Shown here piece after piece: positions 4,565 through 39,625 of a stretch of DNA of 64,000 nucleotides. Position 1 is the first letter of the stretch; each line of letters begins with the position of its first letter. The notes below the pieces were generated by a model that was given only the letters and a program-made list of their open reading frames with translations, did not search any database and had not been told where the DNA came from. The DNA comes from an uncultured Sphingomonadaceae bacterium. Lineage in GTDB: Bacteria > Pseudomonadota > Alphaproteobacteria > Sphingomonadales > Sphingomonadaceae. The stretch is taken from NCBI GenBank assembly GCA_947489315.1, contig CANLCX010000001.1, positions 1,119,501-1,183,500 on the forward strand, in the 5' to 3' direction. The translations under genes and the position numbers were made by a program.

Positions 4565-5530
4565 CTAAAAATTATCAGCAATATCCATCATCCTAGTTAA
4601 GCGCTTTGGAGCTACCATGCGCCAGCTTTTTTTAAGGCAGTCTGCAACATGTCCCCAATCAGTTGCGCCGGTGTCGAGACGAATCGCAATCCAGCCCGAC
4701 TTGCCATAAAATTTGGGAGCAAAATATAGATCTGGATCTGCATCTAAAAGTGCGCCTTGTTCGTCCAGACCGCTGGTCTTAACAAAAACAGATGTACCGG
4801 TTTCACCAAAATGCCGCTGTGAGAAATAAGCAAAATATTTCCCCGTCTTTTCGCTACCAACGCGCCAGCCGGGTGTACCGAAACTGGGACGCTCATATGT
4901 TTCTTCCAACGCCAGAGCGCGCTTGCGCACCTCGCTCAAAATCCAATCGGGATTGGCTTCCCGTGTTACATATTTTGCCAATGTTGAGGCGTATAGCTGG
5001 TGCTCGGCGATCAATACACGGCCTGCCAATAGCGTAGCGGTATCACCAGGGAGAATAGCCACCGCGGTTTGCTCAAGCACCGGTCCGTCATCCAGTTCAG
5101 GTGTTACCAGATGTACGCTGCATCCCGCGTGGGTGTCGCCTGCATCCAATGCACGTTGGTAGGTGTCTAGACCTTTATATTTCGGGAGAAGGCTAGGGTG
5201 GATGTTCAGCATGCGATCTTGCCATTTGGACACAAAATCATCGCTCAAAATCCGCATATAGCCTGCCAATGCGATATATTCGGCGCCGGCGCTTGTCACG
5301 GCTTCATGGATAATTTGGTCATGCTCTGCTCGTTTCAGCCCCTTGTGGGGATGAGCGAAAGTGTCAATCCCCTCTGCTTCCGCTAGCTTCAGTCCAGATG
5401 CTGCAGGGTCATTAGAGGCCACCAGCACGATTTCATAGGGACAATCATCAGCCTTTGCGGCGTAAACCAATGCAGCCATGTTGGACCCACGACCCGAAAT
5501 CAGGACGGCGACTTTGGCCCGTTTTTTCAT
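4565..5530 (-). CDS. purN: Phosphoribosylglycinamide formyltransferase fused to MmcQ/YjbR-like domain
   Basis: Residues 1 to about 195 form GAR transformylase, the third step of purine synthesis, using 10-formyl-tetrahydrofolate. The catalytic set is visible: Asn109 and His111 in MLNIHPSLLPKYKG and Asp147 in ELDDGP. Family members end near 190-220 residues, but this protein runs to 321. The extra part (about 198-321) has VRKRALALEETYERPSFGTPG, a DPDLYFAPKFYGKSGWIAIR region and KKSWRMVAPKRL, which match the MmcQ/YjbR (DUF419) fold. The frame is open through the junction with no stop or frameshift sign. It follows purM by 6 bases on the same strand, so the two are an operon. Confidence 0.92.
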   Translation of the reverse strand: MKKRAKVAVLISGRGSNMAALVYAAKADDCPYEIVLVASNDPAASGLKLAEAEGIDTFAHPHKGLKRAEHDQIIHEAVTSAGAEYIALAGYMRILSDDFVSKWQDRMLNIHPSLLPKYKGLDTYQRALDAGDTHAGCSVHLVTPELDDGPVLEQTAVAILPGDTATLLAGRVLIAEHQLYASTLAKYVTREANPDWILSEVRKRALALEETYERPSFGTPGWRVGSEKTGKYFAYFSQRHFGETGTSVFVKTSGLDEQGALLDADPDLYFAPKFYGKSGWIAIRLDTGATDWGHVADCLKKSWRMVAPKRLTRMMDIADNF

Positions 5531-5536
5531 CTGGCA

Positions 5537-6643
5537 TCAGCCATTATGGGTCGCAGTCCAATCGCTCAGGGCCGACCATGTCCCCGCAGAGCCTGTAACG
5601 GTGCAGCCTTTGGTGCCGGATTGGATAGCACCGACCTGATGCACAGTCTCGCCAGCAGCTTCTAAGTCGGCCGTCACGGATGCCAGATCATCGGGTGATA
5701 CGGCCAATATCATGCCGACACCGCAGTTGAATGTCCGTGCCATTTCTTCCGGCTCGATATTTCCCTGTGCTTGCAGAAAAGCCATTAAGCGTGGCTGATC
5801 CCAGCTGCCGGCATCGACATGGGCATGCATATCATCCGGCAACACACGTGGAATATTCTCCAACAATCCACCACCGGTAATATGGGCCAGCGCCTTGATT
5901 CGACCTGATTGCATGAGCGGTAGCAGCGATTTCACGTAAATTCGGGTCGGTGCGATCAAGGCTTCAATCAACAGCACGTCCGGGTCAAACAATGCTGGAC
6001 GATCCAACTTCCAGCCTTTGTCTTCCGCCAGCCGGCGGACCAAGGAGTAGCCATTGGAATGAATGCCTGAGGAGGCGAGGCCCAGTAGTATATCGCCATC
6101 TGCCAATTGGGCGCCGGTTAAGGCTTTCTCGCGTTCGACGGCACCGACACAAAAGCCTGCCAGATCATAGTCGCCTTCCGAATACATACCCGGCATTTCT
6201 GCGGTCTCGCCACCGATTAATGCACAGCCAGACATTTTGCAGCCTTCCGCTATGCCAGCGACTACTCGTTCAGCGACTCCGTTTTCGAGTTTTCCGGTCG
6301 CAAAATAATCAAGGAAAAATAGCGGTTCTGCGCCTTGTACGATCAAGTCATTGACGCACATCGCGACCAAATCAATGCCGACACTGTCATGCCGGTCATG
6401 GTCAATCGCCAATTTCAGCTTGGTTCCGACGCCGTCATTGGCGGCGACCAACAGCGGATCGTCATAACCAGCCGCCTTCAGGTCGAAAAACCCCCCAAAA
6501 CCGCCCAATTCTGCATTAGCGCCCGCACGTGCGGTTGCCTTAGCGAGCGGAGCGATAGCCTTGACTAGCGCGTTGCCTGCCTCAATCGATACACCGGCTT
6601 TCGCATAAGTGTAAGATTCCGGTTCATTTCGTTTGTCACTCAT
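5537..6643 (-). CDS. purM: Phosphoribosylformylglycinamidine cyclo-ligase (AIR synthetase)
   Basis: This 368-residue ATP-dependent enzyme closes the imidazole ring of FGAM to give aminoimidazole ribotide, step five of purine synthesis. The start [15 protein letters not shown], the glycine-rich [18 protein letters not shown] and [11 protein letters not shown] segments are typical PurM motifs, and the length is normal. It is the first gene of a purM-purN operon on the minus strand, transcribed away from the exported-protein gene at 6706 with a 62-base divergent region between them. Confidence 0.97.
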
Positions 6644-6705
6644 AAAATAGGCGATTAGACAAGTCGCGGGTGGATTTCCACGTCATAATCGTCAAAAGAG
6701 CGGAA

Positions 6706-8034
6706 ATGATATTTTTGACCAGCTTTAAATACCGAATTGGTGTCCTATTTGCGTTGATTGGACTGGCAACCGCCGGACTCGTCTATGCGCAACTTGAGGG
6801 CACGGAGCGCGGCGTCGCGCCGCTGGCCAGTAGTGGTGATTTCGAGGTTTTCGGCGTTGAGGTGAATACGCGCGGAAAAAACGCCTTTGAAGCACGCCAA
6901 AAGGGCTGGGAAGAAGCGCAACGAAAAGCATGGATCATGCTCTATGCCCGCACCCAGGGTGGCAAGACCGCCGGACTTTCCGATGGTGCGCTAAACAATA
7001 TCGTCTCCGCGATCATTGTGGAAGAAGAGCAAATCGGTCCGACTCGCTATATCGCGAGATTAGGCGTCATGTTTGACCGTGCTCGCGCTGGACAGATTTT
7101 GGGTGTTGGCGGCAGGCGGCTTAGATCTCCTCCATTGCTGGTCTTGCCGATTATGTGGAGCGAAGGATCTCCTCAGGTATTCGAAAATAAAACCGAATGG
7201 CAAAAAGCATGGGCACGGTTCCGCGCTGGCGATAGCGCGATTGATTATGTCCGTGCCTATGGTTCTGACAGCGAATCACTGATGCTGACAGCCGGACAGG
7301 CGGAGCGTCACGATCGGCGCTGGTGGCGCATGATTTTGGATCAATTTGGTGCCGCAGATGTGATCGTTCCGATTGTTCGCATGCAATATGAATATCCCGG
7401 CGGGCCAGTAACGGGGCGTTTTAGCGCTCGTTATGGACCTGATAACAAATATATCGAAAGCTTCACGCTGAAGACGAAATCCAGCGACGGCATTCCGGCG
7501 ATGATGGATCAGGCGATCGAACGTATGGATAAAATTTACGCCAGTGCCCTGTCACGCGGGGTCCTGCGGACCGATAAGTCGCTGATCATTGAAGATGATG
7601 GGTTTGACCTTGAAGCGCTTGAGAAAGAAATAGAAGCCGAATTGGCTTCTGAAACTGGCGGCAGCAGCGTTGAAACAACTACCAGCGGCAATGGGGATAG
7701 CGGAGGCGGAGACAGCAATGTCGTTGCTCCAGCCGGTGCAGCAATCACCGTTACCATTCAGTTCGATACGCCTGATGTCGGAGCAGTCGGGCGCGGCGAA
7801 TCATCTGTCCGCTCTGTGGCCGGCGTTTCCTCTGCGTCCACATCCAGTCTGGCATTAGGCGGCGTCTCAGTCATGCGGGTGTCCTTTACCGGCAATCTAT
7901 CGGACCTAGCTTCGGCACTTCGCTCTAAAGGTTGGCAGGTTCAGCAAGGCTCGGGTGCATTGCGGATCAGCCGGGGTGGCGGGACACCAGCGGCGCAAGG
8001 AGCAGATGCCGGGAGTGATGAGCAGGAGCAGTGA
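6706..8034 (+). CDS. Exported DUF2066-like protein
   Basis: The protein of 442 residues starts with a signal peptide (MIFLTSFKYRIGVLFALIG, ending near VYAQ). The mature N-terminal half has the pattern of DUF2066: FEVFGVEVNTRGKNAFEARQ, an Ala/Lys-rich helix, the VMFDRARAGQILG strand and a PPLLVLPIMW segment. A low-complexity Gly/Ser-rich linker (about residues 315-345) leads to a compact C-terminal domain with VMRVSFTGNLSDLASALRSK. A GTG at 6670 would add 12 residues ahead of the signal peptide; the ATG is preferred. The stop overlaps the GTG start of hdaA by four bases, indicating coupled translation. The function is unknown; an envelope role is inferred. Confidence 0.7.
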   Translation: MIFLTSFKYRIGVLFALIGLATAGLVYAQLEGTERGVAPLASSGDFEVFGVEVNTRGKNAFEARQKGWEEAQRKAWIMLYARTQGGKTAGLSDGALNNIVSAIIVEEEQIGPTRYIARLGVMFDRARAGQILGVGGRRLRSPPLLVLPIMWSEGSPQVFENKTEWQKAWARFRAGDSAIDYVRAYGSDSESLMLTAGQAERHDRRWWRMILDQFGAADVIVPIVRMQYEYPGGPVTGRFSARYGPDNKYIESFTLKTKSSDGIPAMMDQAIERMDKIYASALSRGVLRTDKSLIIEDDGFDLEALEKEIEAELASETGGSSVETTTSGNGDSGGGDSNVVAPAGAAITVTIQFDTPDVGAVGRGESSVRSVAGVSSASTSSLALGGVSVMRVSFTGNLSDLASALRSKGWQVQQGSGALRISRGGGTPAAQGADAGSDEQEQ

Positions 8035-8681
8035 CCCAGATCGCTCTTCCTTTGGACACGGCGTTGTCCGCAAAAGATGACGGTTACATTGTCACAGACG
8101 TGAATGCCCAGGTGCATGGATATCTACAAAACTGGCAAAGCTGGCCTAATCTGACAGCTATATTGGTGGGCGATTCCGGTTCCGGGAAATCCGCCATGGC
8201 GCTCCAGTTTGAACAAGACAGTAGCGGCTATATTGTCGATAATGCCGAGATGATGGCTGATGCCGATTTGTTTCATCTTTGGAATCGCGGGAAGGAAGAG
8301 CGTAAGCCACTGCTTTTGACGTCTGCAAAACCAATTTCCGAATGGAACGTACAGCTACCAGATCTCAAATCGCGGTTGGCTGCATCTCTGCTTATCGAGA
8401 TAGATTCTCCAGATGAGGCGATGATCGAAGGCTTGTTGCAGAAGTATTTTTCTCTGCGTGGACTTTCTATTTCCGAAGATGCCTTATCCTATCTCCGCAA
8501 GAGAATGGAACGCAGTTATCGGAATGTTCAGCTTTTGGCGCAACAAATGGATAATCTTGCTATAGAGAGGAAGAAGCCGATTACGCGTGCTATTGCTATG
8601 GAGGCGTTGTCGCAGCTCCAGGCGATGGTCGAAAAGCCTGGTAAAGAGCCAGAAGCAGCACAAAATATTGAGGAAGGTTAA
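8031..8681 (+). CDS. hdaA: HdaA/DnaA-like AAA+ regulator of replication initiation
   Basis: The 216-residue protein is a short AAA+ ATPase related to DnaA domain III without the DNA-binding domain. Walker A is GDSGSGKS at residues 47-54. The N-terminus reads MTQIALPLD; QIALPL resembles the clamp-binding motif with which Hda binds DnaN to trigger ATP hydrolysis on DnaA, stopping re-initiation. The usual Walker B acidic pair is not obvious, as in other Hda proteins with divergent ATPase sites. It starts with GTG inside the stop of the upstream gene, and ppk1 starts directly after its TAA, so all three genes are probably cotranscribed. Confidence 0.85.
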   Translation: MTQIALPLDTALSAKDDGYIVTDVNAQVHGYLQNWQSWPNLTAILVGDSGSGKSAMALQFEQDSSGYIVDNAEMMADADLFHLWNRGKEERKPLLLTSAKPISEWNVQLPDLKSRLAASLLIEIDSPDEAMIEGLLQKYFSLRGLSISEDALSYLRKRMERSYRNVQLLAQQMDNLAIERKKPITRAIAMEALSQLQAMVEKPGKEPEAAQNIEEG

Positions 8682-10865
8682 ATGGATAGTCTCGTCCCCC
8701 AGGCGTCAGAATCCGATAGCGAAAACGAAAGCCTGGCCTATGTTGAGGAAGGCGGTTTAGAGCGCTATTTTAACCGCGAAATTAGCTGGCTGGGTTTCAA
8801 TGAGCGGGTGATTGAAGAAGCACAAAACAGCAAGCACCCTTTGCTGGAGCGGCTTCGTTTTTTGTCCATATCAGGCAATAATCTCGATGAGTTTTTCATG
8901 GTAAGATTTGCTGGATTAGTCGGGCAATTTCGTCAGAATATTGAAGAACGATCTGCGGACGGGTTGACCGCAAGTCAGCAGCTGTTGGCTATCGCTACCC
9001 AGAGCAACATATTGACCTCAAATCAGCAAAAAGTATGGGATCAACTTACCGGCGCGTTGGCAGAACAGGATATTTATGTTCTGTCGGCGTCGGAATTGGA
9101 TGAAGCAAATGATGCGTGGCTCAAGCAGCATTTTCTGGACCAGATATTTCCGGTCCTGACACCGCAAGCGCTGGATCCGGCTCATCCTTTCCCTTTCATT
9201 CCCAACAAGGGATTGAGTTTGGTTTTCGATTTGGTCCGACAATCGGATAGCCAGCGTATCCGTGAACTGGTGATGATTCCCTCTGGCCTGCCGCGGTTTA
9301 TCCGTATGCCCGGGAAGACCGCCACCTATGTTTCAGTTGAATCCGTCATCCAGTGCTATTCCGGTCAAATTTTCCCGGGTTATGACGTCACGAATAGCGG
9401 GCTTTTTCGAATCATTCGCGATAGCGACATTGAGGTGGAGGAAGAAGCCGAAGACCTTGTTCGCTATTTTCGCAGCGCCATCAAACGCAGACGACGGGGA
9501 GATGTCATTCGCCTTGAAATGGGTTCGGATTTGTCTGGGCCGGTTGTGGCGATGTTGCGCGAAAACTTGTTGACCGAGGGGGCTACCGAAAGCCGCATCA
9601 ATGGCTTGGTGGGTGTTGGTGACCTTGACTTGCTGGTGGAGGAGGATCGACCGGATCTTAAGTTCACGCCTTATAGTCCGCGTTTTCCTGAACGGATTCG
9701 CGAACATGGTGGAGATTGTTTCGCGGCGATCAAAGACAAAGACATATTGATCCATCACCCTTATGAATCTTTTGAAGTGGTAATCGAATTTTTGCGTCAA
9801 GCTGCTGCTGATCCTGATGTCGTCGCGATCAAGCAGACTCTTTATCGGGCCGGCAAGCAATCGGCGGTGATCCGCGCTCTGATTGATGCTGCTGAAGCGG
9901 GCAAGTCAGTCACGGCTATTGTTGAGCTTAAGGCCCGCTTCGATGAAGAACAGAATCTGCTCTGGGCCAGCGCATTAGAACGGGCAGGGGTGCAGGTCGT
10001 TTACGGCTTTATCGAATGGAAAACCCACGCAAAAATTTCGATGGTTATCCGCAAGGAACAGGAAGGCTACCGGACCTATTGCCACTTCGGTACCGGCAAT
10101 TATCATCCGGTAACCGCGAAAATTTATACGGATTTGAGCTTCTTTACCGCTGATCCAAAGGCAGCGCGTGATGCCGCGCAATTGTTCAATTATATCACGG
10201 GCTATGTTGAACCAGATAAGCTGGAAATGATCTCCATGTCACCGCGCTATATGCGTCAGGATCTGATGGACTTGATCGACCGCGAAATTGCTAATGAGCG
10301 GGCTGGAAAATCTGGAATGATCTGGGCAAAGATGAACTCACTCGTCGATCCCGCACTGATCGAGAAGCTCTATGCAGCAAGCAATGCAGGCGTTGAAATT
10401 GATCTGGTCATTCGTGGTATCTGTTGTTTGCGTCCCGGTGTGCCGGGGATGTCTGACAATATTCGGGTGAAATCGGTTATTGGGCGCTTCCTAGAGCACA
10501 GCCGGATATGGGCCTTTGGTAATGGCGCGGAGTTACCAAACGATCAGGCGGCGGTCTATATCAGTTCAGCCGATTGGATGCCGCGTAACCTTGATCGTCG
10601 GGTTGAATATATGATGCCGATCACCAATGCGACGGTCCATGATCAGATATTGGACCAGGTCATGGTCGCGAACCTGATCGACGATGAGCAGAGCTGGGAG
10701 CTTAATCCCAATGGCAGTTATACGCGAATCCAACCGTCGGATAAACCGTTCAACCTACATCGTTATTTTATGACCAACCCGTCCCTATCTGGCCGCGGTA
10801 AGGCATTGAATAAGAACACTGCGGTGCCGCGGCTATCTTTGCGCCGCCGCAAGAAAAAAGTCTGA
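8682..10865 (+). CDS. ppk1: Polyphosphate kinase 1 (RNA degradosome-type PPK1)
   Basis: PPK1 reversibly polymerises the gamma-phosphate of ATP into polyphosphate. The 727-residue length is normal. The N-terminal domain has RYFNREISWLGFNERV, and the two phospholipase D-like domains follow. The autophosphorylated histidine is His449 in the THAKISMVIRK segment, with HFGTGNYHPVTAKIYTD after it and ICCLRPGVPGMSDNIRVKS in the C-terminal domain. The ATG abuts the hdaA stop without a gap. The polyphosphatase-type ppx follows 13 bases later, so synthesis and breakdown are co-encoded. Confidence 0.97.
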   Translation: MDSLVPQASESDSENESLAYVEEGGLERYFNREISWLGFNERVIEEAQNSKHPLLERLRFLSISGNNLDEFFMVRFAGLVGQFRQNIEERSADGLTASQQLLAIATQSNILTSNQQKVWDQLTGALAEQDIYVLSASELDEANDAWLKQHFLDQIFPVLTPQALDPAHPFPFIPNKGLSLVFDLVRQSDSQRIRELVMIPSGLPRFIRMPGKTATYVSVESVIQCYSGQIFPGYDVTNSGLFRIIRDSDIEVEEEAEDLVRYFRSAIKRRRRGDVIRLEMGSDLSGPVVAMLRENLLTEGATESRINGLVGVGDLDLLVEEDRPDLKFTPYSPRFPERIREHGGDCFAAIKDKDILIHHPYESFEVVIEFLRQAAADPDVVAIKQTLYRAGKQSAVIRALIDAAEAGKSVTAIVELKARFDEEQNLLWASALERAGVQVVYGFIEWKTHAKISMVIRKEQEGYRTYCHFGTGNYHPVTAKIYTDLSFFTADPKAARDAAQLFNYITGYVEPDKLEMISMSPRYMRQDLMDLIDREIANERAGKSGMIWAKMNSLVDPALIEKLYAASNAGVEIDLVIRGICCLRPGVPGMSDNIRVKSVIGRFLEHSRIWAFGNGAELPNDQAAVYISSADWMPRNLDRRVEYMMPITNATVHDQILDQVMVANLIDDEQSWELNPNGSYTRIQPSDKPFNLHRYFMTNPSLSGRGKALNKNTAVPRLSLRRRKKKV

Positions 10866-10878
10866 TTGCGATAGCCAG

Positions 10879-12384
10879 ATGCAGGTCGGGGGATTGCAAA
10901 TAACCAGAAAGAGAAACTCGCCGCGGACCAACCGCCGAACGGCGATTGTCGACATCGGTTCCAACTCCATCCGTTTGGTTGTCTATCAGGGACCCGCTCG
11001 CGTTCCGGCCATATTGTTCAACGAAAAAGTCATGGCTGGGCTGGGTAAAGAACTTGCGACGACAGGATTGATTGCTGCCGATTCTATGGCATTGGCGGTG
11101 CAGGCGCTGGAACGCTTTTACCGGCTTTGTGCGCAGATGGATGTGGATTCAGTCAAGAGCTTCGCCACCGCCGCGGTGCGGGATGCTACTAACGGCAAGG
11201 ATTTGCTTAAAGCCGCCGCTAAAATTGGTTTTGAGACGCAGGTTTTACTAGGCGAAGAAGAAGCTGAGCTGGCAGGTTTAGGCGTGCTCTCTGCCATACC
11301 TGATGCACGTGGTATTGTCGGCGATCTGGGCGGCGGTAGTCTCGAACTGGCAATGATCGACAAGGGCAAAGTGCTGGAGCGATATAGTTTTCCGCTCGGC
11401 GTCCTTCGCGTTGCCGATCTGCGCGGCAAGGGTAAAGACAAGCTCAAACGGCACGTCCGCAAGATGCTCAAGAAAACCGGCTGGGATCAAAACGCGCAAA
11501 ACTTGCCCTTTTATCTGGTCGGTGGTTCTTGGCGATCGTTAGCCCGGCTGGATATGTTTGACAGTGGCTATCCGCTACCGGTGATCCATCACTATGAAAT
11601 GCAGCCTCAACGCGCACGCCGGCTAGTGAGTCAATTGGCCCGCATGAACAAGGCAAAGCTGAAAGCGGTGCCTGGCCTTTCAACATCCCGCATTCCCACT
11701 TTGGATGACGCAGCATGGCTCCTGTCCTTTATCGTGCGCTACCTTGGTAGCAGTATTATGATCGTGTCGGCCTATGGTGCGCGCGAGGGTTTGTTGTTTC
11801 AGAACGTCAGCAAGCCTGAGAGCAAGCGAGATCCGCTGCTGCTGGCAACAGAAGATTCCGGAGCGGCACAGGCGCGCTTTCCGGCAAACAGTAAATTGCT
11901 GGGCAAATGGATCGCGCCAATTTTTGCCGAGGATCCGCCAGAGTGGCAACGCATAAGGCAGGCCGCTTGCAATTTGGGCGATGTAGCATGGCGAGCCAAT
12001 CCCAATTTTCGGTCCGAACGTGGTCTGGTGATGGGGCTGCACGGCAACTGGGTCGGTATTACCGGTGCAGAGCGAGAACAATTAGGGCAGGCGCTGTTCA
12101 CCAGTTTTGGCGGCGGCAATAATATTTTTCCAGGTGGCGGTAAGCTAGCGAGCGAAAAAGCGACTCAACGGGCCATCTGCTGGGGGCTGGCGATGCGGTT
12201 GGGGCAGCGGCTCAGCGGCGGCACACGCAATCCGTTGGAACAGACGCAGTTGCGCAAAATTGATGGGCGGCTCGAAATTATCATGGCCGAAGATTTGAAG
12301 CCGCTTTACGGGGATGCTGTGGCCAAGCGGCACTTGCAGCTGGCCAATATGCTGGGACTGGAACCTATGTTGGTGACTGAATAA
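10879..12384 (+). CDS. ppx: Ppx/GppA phosphatase (exopolyphosphatase)
   Basis: The 501-residue protein belongs to the actin-fold Ppx/GppA family, which removes terminal phosphates from polyphosphate or converts pppGpp to ppGpp. The phosphate-binding loops DIGSNSIRLVVY (Asp25) and GDLGGGSLEL are present, as are LLGEEEAELAGLGV and a C-terminal HD-like helical region. The position right after ppk1 favours exopolyphosphatase, but sequence alone cannot exclude pppGpp activity. It ends 7 bases from a convergent lipoprotein gene. Confidence 0.92.
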   Translation: MQVGGLQITRKRNSPRTNRRTAIVDIGSNSIRLVVYQGPARVPAILFNEKVMAGLGKELATTGLIAADSMALAVQALERFYRLCAQMDVDSVKSFATAAVRDATNGKDLLKAAAKIGFETQVLLGEEEAELAGLGVLSAIPDARGIVGDLGGGSLELAMIDKGKVLERYSFPLGVLRVADLRGKGKDKLKRHVRKMLKKTGWDQNAQNLPFYLVGGSWRSLARLDMFDSGYPLPVIHHYEMQPQRARRLVSQLARMNKAKLKAVPGLSTSRIPTLDDAAWLLSFIVRYLGSSIMIVSAYGAREGLLFQNVSKPESKRDPLLLATEDSGAAQARFPANSKLLGKWIAPIFAEDPPEWQRIRQAACNLGDVAWRANPNFRSERGLVMGLHGNWVGITGAEREQLGQALFTSFGGGNNIFPGGGKLASEKATQRAICWGLAMRLGQRLSGGTRNPLEQTQLRKIDGRLEIIMAEDLKPLYGDAVAKRHLQLANMLGLEPMLVTE

Positions 12385-36211: not shown

Positions 36212-36323
36212 GTCAAAATCCAGTATGTTCTTTCTATGAACCATTAATGTTCTAATTATGTTCTTATGTCAAATGTTATTTGGAACATACTGGAAATACG
36301 TTTTGGGACGCGAAAAGGTTACA

Positions 36324-38084
36324 TCAATCTCGATGCGTGAGTTGGTAAATGGGGTACGTGCCGTAGCCTTTGGCAAATTCAATATTTCCGGCATAACGAC
36401 ACATATATTGATCCGGTGCCTCCAGGGCCAAAATTGCGGCGAAAGGCTCGGTCACAAATACCGCGCCTGGAGGTGTCACTGGTTCGATCCGGGCTGCTCT
36501 GGATACTTCAGTGCCATAAAGCGTCGTCTTCCCCGTAATGGGATCCTGGGTTTCATAAGCTGGGCCATAGTGCACGCCGATGCGCATCCCGCTGCTCTCT
36601 GTCATACCTAAAAGCGTATAGTCAAAATCTTGCAACGAGCTTTGTAGTTCCAGTGCCAAACTGGCAGCGCAGGGGGCATCGCGTGTTATGGCGAGAAGCG
36701 CATCTCCCCAGCTATTTTGGGCTAAGATCTGGCCAGGGTAGTTTTCCAGTACATTGGCCATGTTTCCCATGACTCCATTCCAGAAAGCCGGAAGCGTTGC
36801 TTCTGCTAGTTTCGAAAAGCCGGGGAAATCGGTAAATAAAATGGCTGCAACTGTCCGCTTGTATCGGTCTTCATCTGGCCTCTCTGAGCCACTGAGATTG
36901 CGATCTATCTCACCGGAATCGACAATGTGAGCAGTTCCCCCATAAGAGCTCCAGATGGCAACATCCGCGCCAGTGCCAGCTGACCCTGTTGATGCATTTC
37001 TGTCCCAAATCGCGAGTTGCTGTGCTGATTTTCCGAGATATTCCGCACGCAGTATCGCCATGCCCATGGCGACCTTGCTGGCATATCCGAATTGATCTGG
37101 ATCGCCGACATAGTGCATCTCAGTGGCAAAGTTGACGCTGCTTGCTGCTGTTATGCAGGCTTCAAATCGCCTCAACCAGCCTTCTCCGGCAGGCATAATC
37201 GACTGGGCAATAAAATCTTCCTGCACAAATGGCAGAATCACGTTGAGTTCCCCGCCTCGTGTGAGCACCGTCTCCGCGATCAATATGTCGGCGCCGGCAG
37301 CCAAGGCGCCATAAGCATAACCAACATCATTTTGTTCCAGAAACTCGTTTATGGCAGTTCGCAGTTCTGCCTCGTTTTCTTTATTTTCCAGAAACATGTG
37401 GCCGCAATATTGAATGACGGACGGCGGCGATATCGGCGCAAGCAGTTTATAAATTGCATTTTGATCCAAGCCCGTTTGTTCAGCCACAAGTGCCAATTGC
37501 CTGCTACTGCTTGCTCTCGCACCAGCGTTTGCATCGGGCATTGCGCCCGCTTTGTTCAGGCTCTCCTGTACTGCATCTAATCGCCCGATAATCAACAACG
37601 CTTCTGCTTGGGTTGCTGTATCATAATAGTTATCGGGTGTAGCTATTTCCGGCAGATCAAGAATGGCAGATGCTATTTTGCGCGCCTCATCGGTTTGTCC
37701 GCCCAGAAAGGCCAGAGCGGCCGCGTTGATTCCTGGATAGGCATCGCCGCTCACTTCAAAAATCTTCCGATAGGCATGATAGGCTTTGAGTAGTGCGGTT
37801 TGACGTTCGCCTGTGGCCGAAATTGCCAAAGCCGCATCCTTCAAAATACGTGCGGCGATGCTGCGGTGGTGGGCATCAGGCGAGCTCTCTAAGCCAAATT
37901 GGTGAAATAGCTCCATCGCTTGTTCGCCATTGCCCATGCGGGCTAGTGCCAGGACCATCAGATGGTGCAGTTCAGCAGACGGGTCGCCAGCGTTTATCGC
38001 GGAAATCGCTGTGTCATAGGCAAGCAGAAGATTGCCATTGTCGATCGCGGCTTTGGTCAGTGCTGTCGCATCATCGGTTGCCAT
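36324..38084 (-). CDS. TPR / SLOG-like / class III nucleotide cyclase protein
   Basis: This 586-residue protein has three parts. Residues 1-215 are Ala-rich helical hairpins like TPRs (LHHLMVLALARMGNGEQAME). Residues about 222-362 look like a Rossmannoid SLOG/LSDAT sensor domain: GHMFLENKENEAELR, GYAYGALAAGADILIAETVL, GGELNVILPF and GEGWLRRFEACITAA. Residues about 408-583 are a class III cyclase catalytic domain, with metal ligands Asp419 (LFTDFPGFSKL) and Asp461 (WGDALLAI) and Arg532 in VSRAARIEP. The substrate-specifying Lys and Asp appear to be Asn457 and Thr521, and the usual Asn is Ser528, so the base it cyclises is unclear. It is coupled to the TIR gene upstream (TAATG). Middle-domain assignment is inference. 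Confidence 0.8.
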   Translation of the reverse strand: MATDDATALTKAAIDNGNLLLAYDTAISAINAGDPSAELHHLMVLALARMGNGEQAMELFHQFGLESSPDAHHRSIAARILKDAALAISATGERQTALLKAYHAYRKIFEVSGDAYPGINAAALAFLGGQTDEARKIASAILDLPEIATPDNYYDTATQAEALLIIGRLDAVQESLNKAGAMPDANAGARASSSRQLALVAEQTGLDQNAIYKLLAPISPPSVIQYCGHMFLENKENEAELRTAINEFLEQNDVGYAYGALAAGADILIAETVLTRGGELNVILPFVQEDFIAQSIMPAGEGWLRRFEACITAASSVNFATEMHYVGDPDQFGYASKVAMGMAILRAEYLGKSAQQLAIWDRNASTGSAGTGADVAIWSSYGGTAHIVDSGEIDRNLSGSERPDEDRYKRTVAAILFTDFPGFSKLAEATLPAFWNGVMGNMANVLENYPGQILAQNSWGDALLAITRDAPCAASLALELQSSLQDFDYTLLGMTESSGMRIGVHYGPAYETQDPITGKTTLYGTEVSRAARIEPVTPPGAVFVTEPFAAILALEAPDQYMCRYAGNIEFAKGYGTYPIYQLTHRD

Positions 38085-39097
38085 TAGTCGGTAGCCGTTT
38101 GCGCCAATCTTTCTTCTTCGCGCAGCATGGCTTTGCGTTTACGCAATATTTTTATGGTCAGCAGTGCTGCCGGTACCGCTAGTGTGATGATCCCGAACGC
38201 GATCCAGAAAACATCGCCAAGCGCGCCGTAGCCTTTGATCAGCTGATTCAATGGCTCCCATATGAAACGAATGGCCACTATCCATAGAAGGGCAGCGAGG
38301 TAGATGGCGATCTTGTCATTGAGAACTATACCGAGTCCGGATAAGCCGTCGCCCTTGTTTTTCCCGCCAGCCGCTTCGCGAAAACGGATAAGTTCTGCTT
38401 CGGCTTCCTGCTGGCCAGACTCGGCCTGATCTAGCTCGCGGCGCAGACGTACCAATTCACGCGCATTTGTCGCAACCTCACTCGATTGGGCTTTGGAAGC
38501 TGCTGAGAGCTCCGCCAGCTCGGCTTCCATGCCACGGCGTTTGGCGCGTTCTCCTGCCAGTTGCTGACCCATGTCTGGCATCGCGCTTTCGACAATATTG
38601 TCGATGACATCGGGAACAAGCGGATCTTTCGGATAGCGCGCAAGCCAGCTTTTCCAACCTGCAACATTACCCTTTTCTTTGAGGCGGGTGTATTCAACAA
38701 GGCCCGGTCGATCGAGCAACTCGCCTACACGCTCCAATATACCGAGCCAGATCGCATTATCGGTTCCTTCTGCCCCTTCCGGTAAAACATCCGCTTGAAC
38801 AGCTCTAAACTCAAGTGGGAGCGTACAAGGCCGCAACTGCACCGCGATCAATCCGCTGCGCTCCTTACCCGTGCGCGCTTCATTGCGCACCCAATCGGAT
38901 TCTACCGATTCTTCCGTCCATAGGACCAGCAGTGCCTTAGCGGCGTCGATTTCTCGTTCAATTTCACGGTCAAAGGATGAACCGGCACCTATGCCGGCAT
39001 CAAACCACACGCTGACCTTCAATTTTTCTAATATATCTCGGATAACCGTGCACCGATCCCGATCATTCCGCGAATAGCTTATAAAAATATCTGCCAT
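38084..39097 (-). CDS. TIR-domain protein with coiled coil and two C-terminal TM helices
   Basis: The 337-residue protein starts with a TIR domain (1 to about 130): IFISYSRNDRDRC, a BB-loop-like WFDAGIGAGSSFDREI, and SDWVRNEART with Glu73 in the position of the catalytic glutamate of NAD-cleaving TIRs. A linker with WKSWLARYPKDPLVPDVI is followed by a coiled coil (about 178-243, Glu/Ala/Arg-rich) and two membrane helices (about 262-283 and 292-317), with a basic tail. The TIR would face the cytosol. The stop overlaps the start of the cyclase gene by one base. It is the first gene of the pair. NADase activity and a defence role are inference. Confidence 0.88.
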   Translation of the reverse strand: MADIFISYSRNDRDRCTVIRDILEKLKVSVWFDAGIGAGSSFDREIEREIDAAKALLVLWTEESVESDWVRNEARTGKERSGLIAVQLRPCTLPLEFRAVQADVLPEGAEGTDNAIWLGILERVGELLDRPGLVEYTRLKEKGNVAGWKSWLARYPKDPLVPDVIDNIVESAMPDMGQQLAGERAKRRGMEAELAELSAASKAQSSEVATNARELVRLRRELDQAESGQQEAEAELIRFREAAGGKNKGDGLSGLGIVLNDKIAIYLAALLWIVAIRFIWEPLNQLIKGYGALGDVFWIAFGIITLAVPAALLTIKILRKRKAMLREEERLAQTATD

Positions 39098-39113
39098 ATT
39101 ATTATTATCCCGC

Positions 39114-39151
39114 CACTATGGGCATCCCCCGTTATCCGACAAACCATAGTG
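39114..39151. promoter_or_regulatory. Inverted repeat upstream of the TIR-cyclase operon
   Basis: CACTATGG at 39114-39121 is mirrored by CCATAGTG at 39144-39151, ending 17 bases before the TIR start codon. A second small palindrome, CTGTG-CGT-CACAG, lies at about 39154-39166. They may be an operator or a hairpin in the leader that hides the translation start. No transcription factor is encoded next to the pair. Confidence 0.45.
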
Positions 39152-39525
39152 TCCTGTGCGTCACAGAACAAGAGAGCTAGAAATTTCGCGCGGATTTGAC
39201 GGGAAATGAGCTAAAGATAAGTAGAATATTGATCTGCTTACCGGGCAGTCAGAATTTGTAGCTGTTGATCCTTACAATAAATATATTGACCGTAACAGCG
39301 ATGCCAACGTGATGGCGGTTTCTGCACCATAGCTGTTGATCTAGATCGTATTTTTCCGCTTCAAGAACAGTAACGCCATTGCCACGACGGCTGGTACTGT
39401 TTGCACGAATGCAATGCCAGGGGACAGCGTCATAGCTAAACTGCCCGCCAATGAAGGCCAATTCAAAACCCATATTGGTTTTTGTGCAACAGTTTCATCA
39501 TAGCAGCCAGTTTGGACTTGCTTTT
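39152..39525. other. Long non-coding stretch between the TIR operon and rpsB leader
   Basis: No convincing gene was found here. It must hold the promoters of the TIR-cyclase operon (minus) and of rpsB (plus), but no clear -35/-10 pair stands out. A 70-76-residue minus-strand frame ending at 39341 encodes one hydrophobic segment but lacks a ribosome-binding site and runs into the rpsB leader. Confidence 0.5.
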
Positions 39526-39625
39526 CGTGCCGCTCCGCTTTAACGGCACGCTCATTCCACATGGAAAGCACTCATACCGGTGCCAATGGCGGTCTTTTAG
39601 GTCGTTTGAGGTTCTCAGCTTTCCA
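39526..39625 (+). promoter_or_regulatory. Structured 5' leader of rpsB
   Basis: A hairpin CGTGCCG (39526-39532) / CGGCACG (39544-39550) is followed by a perfect 8-bp long-range pairing of TGGAAAGC (39562-39569) with GCTTTCCA (39618-39625). The enclosed part can form an ACCG...CGGT hairpin with GCC/GGC inside. The region ends 28 bases before the rpsB ATG. S2 is known to repress its own mRNA through a leader structure in other proteobacteria, so an autoregulatory element is plausible here, by inference. Confidence 0.5.

Follow-up and report, generated by a model that had tools for sequence, protein, structure and literature searches.

Two overlapping genes in a 64,000 nucleotide (nt) stretch of contig CANLCX010000001.1 from an uncultured Sphingomonadaceae bacterium (the window) may together encode a signalling relay with two messengers. 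The first encodes a 337 amino acid (aa) protein with a TIR domain, a coiled coil and two transmembrane (TM) segments. The second encodes a 586 aa protein, termed here the sensor protein, with a TPR-S region, a SLOG-like domain and a class III nucleotide cyclase domain. In the relay suggested by these domains, a signal derived from nicotinamide adenine dinucleotide (NAD) and made by the TIR protein would pass through the SLOG-like domain and TPR-S region to the cyclase, which would answer with a cyclic mononucleotide (cNMP). The probability given to this reading is slightly under one half. The two open reading frames (ORFs) are on the minus strand and share one base within TAATG, which confirms the gene pair described in an initial annotation of the sequence. 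A one-base junction between both genes is also seen in two related loci, L002 and L003 (loci and genomes are given by L and G numbers).

Domains of the two proteins

The 337 aa protein matches Pfam TIR_2 at residues 4–99 (E = 1.1e-17) and scores just above the cut-off of the ThsB_TIR model (E = 1.2e-4, 22.9 bits vs. 21.2). Its PADLOC matches are all inside the TIR domain, the best being SAVED_TIR at 4.6e-9, with ThsB at 1.4e-5. In the motif W69xxxE73, E73 aligns with a glutamate of AbTIR that we take to be catalytic. All 35 of the TIR sequences aligned, a set selected by similarity to the TIR seeds, have both the W and the E. Residues 169–238 show weak coiled-coil matches (E 0.04–0.1), and a hydropathy scan reveals two hydrophobic TM segments that start at about positions 255 and 290. 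The initially annotated order of TIR, coiled coil and two C-terminal TM helices is thus retained. No cNMP-binding domain (CNBD) is matched in this protein by Pfam at E up to 1, a scan in which HMMER filters discard most matches above 0.1.

The sensor protein is assigned by Pfam to the TPR-S family (PF20308, residues 29–124, E = 2.4e-13, 51 bits vs. a cut-off of 27.6). The related model MAP3K_TRAF_bd matches it at 8.5e-7. The predicted model of the TPR-S region displays helical repeats, with predicted local distance difference test (pLDDT) values, taken by block, of 58–93 up to residue 180. Guanylate_cyc (PF00211) matches residues 413–582 at E = 3.5e-9; the TPR-like repeats and the class III cyclase that were first noticed by eye are therefore both present. 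There is no PADLOC and no NCBIfam match to this protein. In an alignment with guanylyl cyclase 3et6, D419 and D461 correspond to the metal aspartates and R532 to the catalytic arginine, roles that we assume to hold here. The base-contact positions are occupied by N457 and T525, where canonical cyclases presumably carry base-specifying residues, so that the base of the cyclic mononucleotide is not predictable. A Foldseek search with the whole 586 aa model gives TPR and cyclase chains and no SLOG chain among the 50 matches listed.

The middle region of the sensor protein, residues 212–395, has no Pfam match. The initial annotation saw a Rossmannoid, SLOG-like region here, and profile comparison agrees for the first half of the domain. 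In hhalign, a 60-sequence family alignment was run against 17 alignments made from the loci available, of which some hold just 2–6 sequences and two represent other regions of the sensor protein. LOG is matched with a probability of 72% (P = 3.4e-5, 69 columns) and DprA with 7% (P = 0.0047, 46 columns); the remaining 15 targets, including dxr, SDR, icd, pyrH and TIR, have P values of at least 0.1. When 5,238 ORFs were scanned with a hidden Markov model of the domain, there were 29 matches (E 1e-8 to 2), which were not checked singly: 25 are from LOG loci, one from each, and are not independent copies, and the other four belong to the family's own loci or those of its weak relatives (L050, L053, L073, L078). 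Two structure models were built from three input sequences each, and both are poor. With the domain-only model (mean pLDDT 44), the first 12 Foldseek matches are LOG, lysine-decarboxylase-like, molybdenum-cofactor-protein and DprA chains, several per protein, and none of them has an E better than 0.016. The profile evidence is the ground for taking the domain as a member of the SLOG superfamily, to which the poor model adds weak support. The PGGxGT motif of LOG enzymes is present in 23 of 26 LOG rows and in none of 71 family rows. A working LOG enzyme was therefore rejected, and LOG catalysis is a less likely role than sensing.

Conservation of the sensor protein and its coupling to TIR

Conservation was read from a set of 30 members consisting of the window, L002, L003 and 27 of 29 further loci (L024 and L027 were left out). 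Residues G228, G259, G264, E271, P285 and R306 of the SLOG-like domain are identical in all 30, and D266 in 29. Across the 71 rows of a larger set, in which two loci are contained twice, E271 is found in 68 and so is R306; L069, L072 and L078 are the exceptions. The cyclase triad D419-D461-R532 is intact in 18 of the 30 members and lost in 12, and this follows the branches: the window's branch keeps all three residues in 18/18, and the sister branch has lost the site in 12/12. Within the stretch fetched, the 12 sister-branch loci have a TIR gene in 11 cases, a CRP-type gene in 10 and a pNTSase1-like gene in six; their TIR partners are TIR-TPR proteins. The pNTSase1 family (PF20301) is matched in L060 at 5.2e-43, and the other pNTSase1-like genes are called by resemblance to the L060 gene. 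L046 has TIR, CRP-type and pNTSase1-like genes all beside an intact cyclase triad, and L133 combines an intact triad with a CRP-type gene. These combinations suggest that the full gene set is ancestral and was then trimmed in different ways in different lineages.

A CRP-type gene overlaps or abuts the intact-cyclase gene in L114, L115, L116 and L133 (Pfam-checked in L114 and L115). The three overlapping cases, which are CRP-type cNMP-binding regulators in three genomes of one family, are at L114 5266–7822, L115 4851–8409 and L116 5945–8492.

Of the 149 genomes of the bacterial family, 43 have a match to the sensor protein at E 0.001. Within the genus, 22 of 32 genomes have a match, and in 11 the identity is at least 66%. 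Beyond the bacterial family, the family alignment scores above 200 bits in 17 genomes from other families among 289 of the class (two partial or in pieces) and finds matches at E 1e-45 in 10 of 349 genomes of the phylum, one of which is shared with the class set. The TIR-model search covered 40 genomes: 36 of the 43 above and four congeners. Fragments or weak matches (G016, G047, G077, G078, G105) and two short contigs (G116, G135) were left out of this search; the short contigs both have an adjacent TIR, which is not in the count. In 34 of the 40 genomes a TIR is no more than 5 kb from the sensor gene, compared with 0.33 expected for randomly placed TIR genes, and a chance neighbourhood was rejected. 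The count is 30 of 36 once the congeners are removed, and in genomes with a single TIR match this TIR is within 5 kb in 16 of 18. The neighbourhood of a TIR and the sensor gene, initially annotated in the window, is therefore kept in most of the related genomes searched.

The sensor gene occurs beside several different TIR proteins. In the intact-cyclase branch, the TIR-coiled coil-2TM type is found in the window, L002 and L003. Other partners in this branch are TIR-SH3-YARHG (L043, by Pfam), TIR-SH3 (L044, L045, L047 and L048, by phmmer) and TIR-FHA (L041). A TIR-TPR partner is overlapping, adjacent or one small gene away in L042 and L046, and 1.1–1.2 kb away in L036 and L037. TIR-LprI genes are divergent to the sensor gene in L189 and L192, both of which were viewed (Pfam in L189). 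In genome G764 (L189 6685–12818), the sensor gene and an ABC1-kinase-like gene lie between two TIR genes that differ in type. In L252 (G000:C6:146000-158000, positions 5330–11654), a 650 aa TIR gene is about 2.4 kb from a 659 aa ORF whose start is SLOG-like by eye. A distant TPR-S/cyclase gene in L078 (1–7677, Caballeronia sp. SBC2 plasmid pSBC2-4) overlaps a lipoprotein-like gene, and a DUF4231 gene and a gene annotated as TIR are nearby; its SLOG residues are poorly kept.

Proposed relay and alternative readings

Once triggered, the membrane-anchored TIR protein would cleave NAD+ to an ADP-ribose-type signal, as its conserved glutamate suggests. The SLOG-like domain, with the TPR-S region, would bind this signal, which is consistent with the SLOG homology, the missing LOG catalytic motif and the conservation of the domain. 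Binding would then switch on the fused class III cyclase, whose active-site residues are present, and the cyclic mononucleotide may act on a receiver encoded outside the window's operon. Some relatives have a cNMP-binding regulator of the CRP family beside their intact cyclase. A flow from the TIR signal to SLOG is favored because TIR and SLOG stay together in the bacterial family while the output varies, and because Thoeris offers a precedent for it. A broader proposal is more tentative and, taken whole, somewhat doubtful: that SLOG reads the TIR signal and gates the cyclase as a converter of messengers, that the TIR-SLOG core has been re-wired to CRP or pNTSase1 outputs in sister lineages, and that it moves as a cassette from one genomic site to another.

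In Thoeris, the TIR-made signal is read by a SLOG domain, which then sets off an NADase; the effector of Pycsar is switched on by the product of a cyclase. The TPR-S and pNTSase1 families are, we assume, those of the predicted conflict systems with TIR of Burroughs and Aravind in 2020, where the TPR scaffold is reportedly predicted as a sensor of NAD-derived signals. PMC10022894 and PMC9503650 describe ThsA SLOG as the reader of the Thoeris signal, and the latter also has inactive members of the TIR/DrHyd/SLOG class binding nucleotides as sensors. The window pair shares with Thoeris a TIR with a catalytic-type glutamate, above the ThsB_TIR cut-off, next to a SLOG-bearing protein (SLOG by the first-half profile). 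It differs in that TPR-S and a class III cyclase are the fusion partners of its SLOG and its TIR has a TM hairpin. No SIR2 or other known ThsA-type effector is matched by Pfam on the SLOG protein, and by its domains the pair is not a Thoeris system. As in Pycsar, a class III cyclase with the metal aspartates and the arginine adjoins a TIR membrane protein, but the cyclase carries TPR-S and SLOG with no PADLOC match and, with no CNBD match on the putative effector, the pair is not assigned to Pycsar. The TPR-S/pNTSase1 systems have in common with the window a TPR-S beside TIR, and the sister-branch loci, with their TIR-TPR, frequent CRP and six pNTSase1-like genes, have the same parts. The window pair differs by its intact cyclase triad and has no adjoining pNTSase1 or CRP gene. 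The portions seen of the papers found (including PMC8195603, PMC7159879, PMC9503650, PMC10022894 and PMC10952713), among which the likely source papers are not, hold no description of this pair. The initial label of an undescribed module is nevertheless too strong, because Pfam already has both TPR-S and pNTSase1 as named families.

Several observations weigh against the relay. Judged by the triad, which is absent in 12 of the 30 members, the cyclase is dispensable within the protein family. Six of the 40 genomes (G018, G094, G140, G142, G074, G090) have no TIR within 5 kb of the sensor gene. At loci from other families of the class a TIR match is found in only two of 20 (L111 and, weakly, L119), with TIR seeds from the window's own bacterial family, which divergent TIRs may escape; the phylum-level loci extend 1.5 kb on each side and are outside the coupling count. 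TIR coupling is the rule within this bacterial family and not across the whole protein family, and the sensor protein can presumably work with other inputs since these genomes and loci show no nearby TIR. No cNMP receiver is encoded adjoining the window pair. The LOG match spans 69 of 184 columns, all in the first half of the domain, and both structure models are poor, hence no binding pocket is visible.

The initial annotation had proposed that the pair may merge the Thoeris and Pycsar logics, with the TIR product read by SLOG or the cyclic nucleotide acting on the TIR. This is partly supported: the domain calls, the operon and the conserved coupling hold, and of the two flows the first fits better, because the TIR has no cNMP-binding match and because TIR and SLOG persist in the sister branch, where the cyclase site is lost. 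The reverse flow, where TPR-S/SLOG would sense a trigger and the cyclase product would fire the membrane TIR as an NAD-depleting effector, is quite unlikely. It agrees with the intact triad of the window's branch and with the TIR effectors paired with cyclases in Pycsar (PMC10952713). However, besides the missing CNBD, on which an action of the cyclase through such a domain was rejected, the CAP12/Pycsar TIR model scores 14.7 bits on the TIR protein, below its cut-off of 24.7, PADLOC does not match the cyclase protein, and a TIR gene is still nearby in 11 of the 12 members that have no cyclase triad. The overlapping genes and the repeat scaffold of TPR-S, together with a MAP3K TRAF-binding model that matches 21 of the 30 members, would suit a direct complex in which the TIR protein binds the sensor protein, SLOG senses a cellular nucleotide and gates the TIR or the cyclase by contact, with no diffusible TIR signal. 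Such a complex is unlikely, as the TIR partners differ outside TIR (SH3-YARHG, FHA, TPR, LprI) and have no obvious common docking part but the TIR.

The purpose of the pair is a separate question, and a role in general stress signalling rather than phage defence, with transcription tuned through cNMP and CRP, is compatible with the relay. CRP-type genes are found beside many relatives, and the neighbour families are metabolic, housekeeping or general among the 25 listed of 111 Pfam families. Against it, the patchy presence in the genus, the insertion at a new place and the changing partners suit an accessory module, and TIR with SLOG resembles immune signalling. Stress signalling is a serious candidate that falls somewhat short of even odds, and a defence role is possible. 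PADLOC at 1e-10 matches 53 families on 120 neighbour ORFs of 17 intact-cyclase loci, a random draw from those below 900 aa among 143 that likely includes some spurious antisense ORFs; no control set was scanned, and neither enrichment nor its lack is claimed. The 25 of these families listed are each matched by one member and include DpdF, PD-T4-6, PsyrT, mad6 and C3a193; part of the matches is probably one RecQ-type helicase. An ORF at L189 3482–5266 resembles RecQ by eye.

If a conserved TIR with a SLOG-gated cyclase is indeed the arrangement, the relay would link the messenger worlds of Thoeris and Pycsar in one pathway. It would also provide a bacterial parallel for TPR-S-type sensing, the region being related to the animal MAP3K TRAF-binding domain. 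The wiring is directly testable with the two purified proteins.

Insertion site and neighbouring genes

The pair is located between pssA and rpsB, in agreement with the initial annotation (names from ORF sequences, not by search), and a 91 aa ORF adjoins pssA. An insertion pattern at this locus had been overlooked. Homology of the window to the close relative G776 ends at 36323, returns at 39341–39436, a 96 bp match to the 3' end of a presumably DUF1304-like gene, and returns again from 39483. G775 shows the same break pattern, with 36324 and 39331. The pssA-rpsB interval of G776 has the DUF1304-like gene and one further gene (names by eye). Since homology stops at 36323 and resumes inside the truncated gene, the pair is most simply an inserted cassette (Table 1). 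The 3.0 kb insert consists of the two genes and about 240 bp. The window lacks the remainder of the DUF1304-like gene and the gene after it, both of which were lost either during the insertion or at a later time. Other genes occupy this site in two further relatives that were viewed (L182, L183).

Table 1. Features of the gene pair and its insertion site (positions in the window)
Feature	Position	Strand	Basis
TIR - coiled coil - two-TM protein (337 aa)	38084..39097	-	Pfam TIR_2 1.1e-17; TM segments from hydropathy
Putative catalytic Glu of TIR domain, E73 (WxxxE)	38879..38881	-	Alignment to AbTIR; W/E conservation
Two predicted TM helices, C-terminal hairpin (residues ~255-273, ~290-308)	38174..38335	-	Hydropathy scan
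TAATG stop-start overlap	38082..38086	-	ORF reading
TPR-S / SLOG-like / class III cyclase protein (586 aa)	36324..38084	-	Pfam and profile comparison
TPR-S region (residues 1-205)	37470..38084	-	PF20308 2.4e-13 at 29-124; predicted helical repeats
Putative SLOG-superfamily domain (residues 212-395)	36900..37451	-	hhalign to LOG P=3.4e-5; weak Foldseek of poor model
Class III cyclase domain (residues 409-585) with D419, D461, R532	36330..36860	-	PF00211 3.5e-9; residue alignment
Probable inserted cassette, missing at corresponding place in G776 and G775	36324..39340	.	blastn to L180, L181; right edge 39330 or 39340 by relative
ORF ending in remnant (39341-39436) of gene intact in G776 (DUF1304-like)	39341..39571	-	96-bp match to 3' end in L180

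The same pair is found in G776, G759 and G771 with protein identities of 73–89%, and has different neighbours in the two viewed (L186, L188); G776 and G771 are judged to be the sources of L002 and L003. Compared with G776, the DNA identity of the pair is 77%, below the protein identity of 83–89%, a sign of purifying selection on the pair. Seven congeners have the sensor gene at 66–67% identity without this TIR. In G000 and G776, the site of the G764 sensor and ABC1-like genes is empty and the adjacent TIR gene remains. A phage-borne origin was rejected because the family alignment, used through a single peptide pattern, brought up no relative when viral_contigs was scanned once. Plasmid carriage was also set aside: there are seven records, two of which cover at least 80% of the protein, both from Caballeronia at 29% identity.

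Neighbours at loci from other families include, besides the CRP-type genes (L114–L116, L133), small genes that we take by eye to be STAS-like, which adjoin the relatives at L126 4932–7130, L137 1102–3324 and L138 619–3075. In L126 the cyclase domain is joined to a histidine-kinase-type ATPase domain. In G018 (L034 4048–5640), a gene for a multi-TM protein overlaps the intact-cyclase gene; it has no confident Pfam match (491 aa scanned), and this genome, which is 85% complete, has no TIR_2 match.

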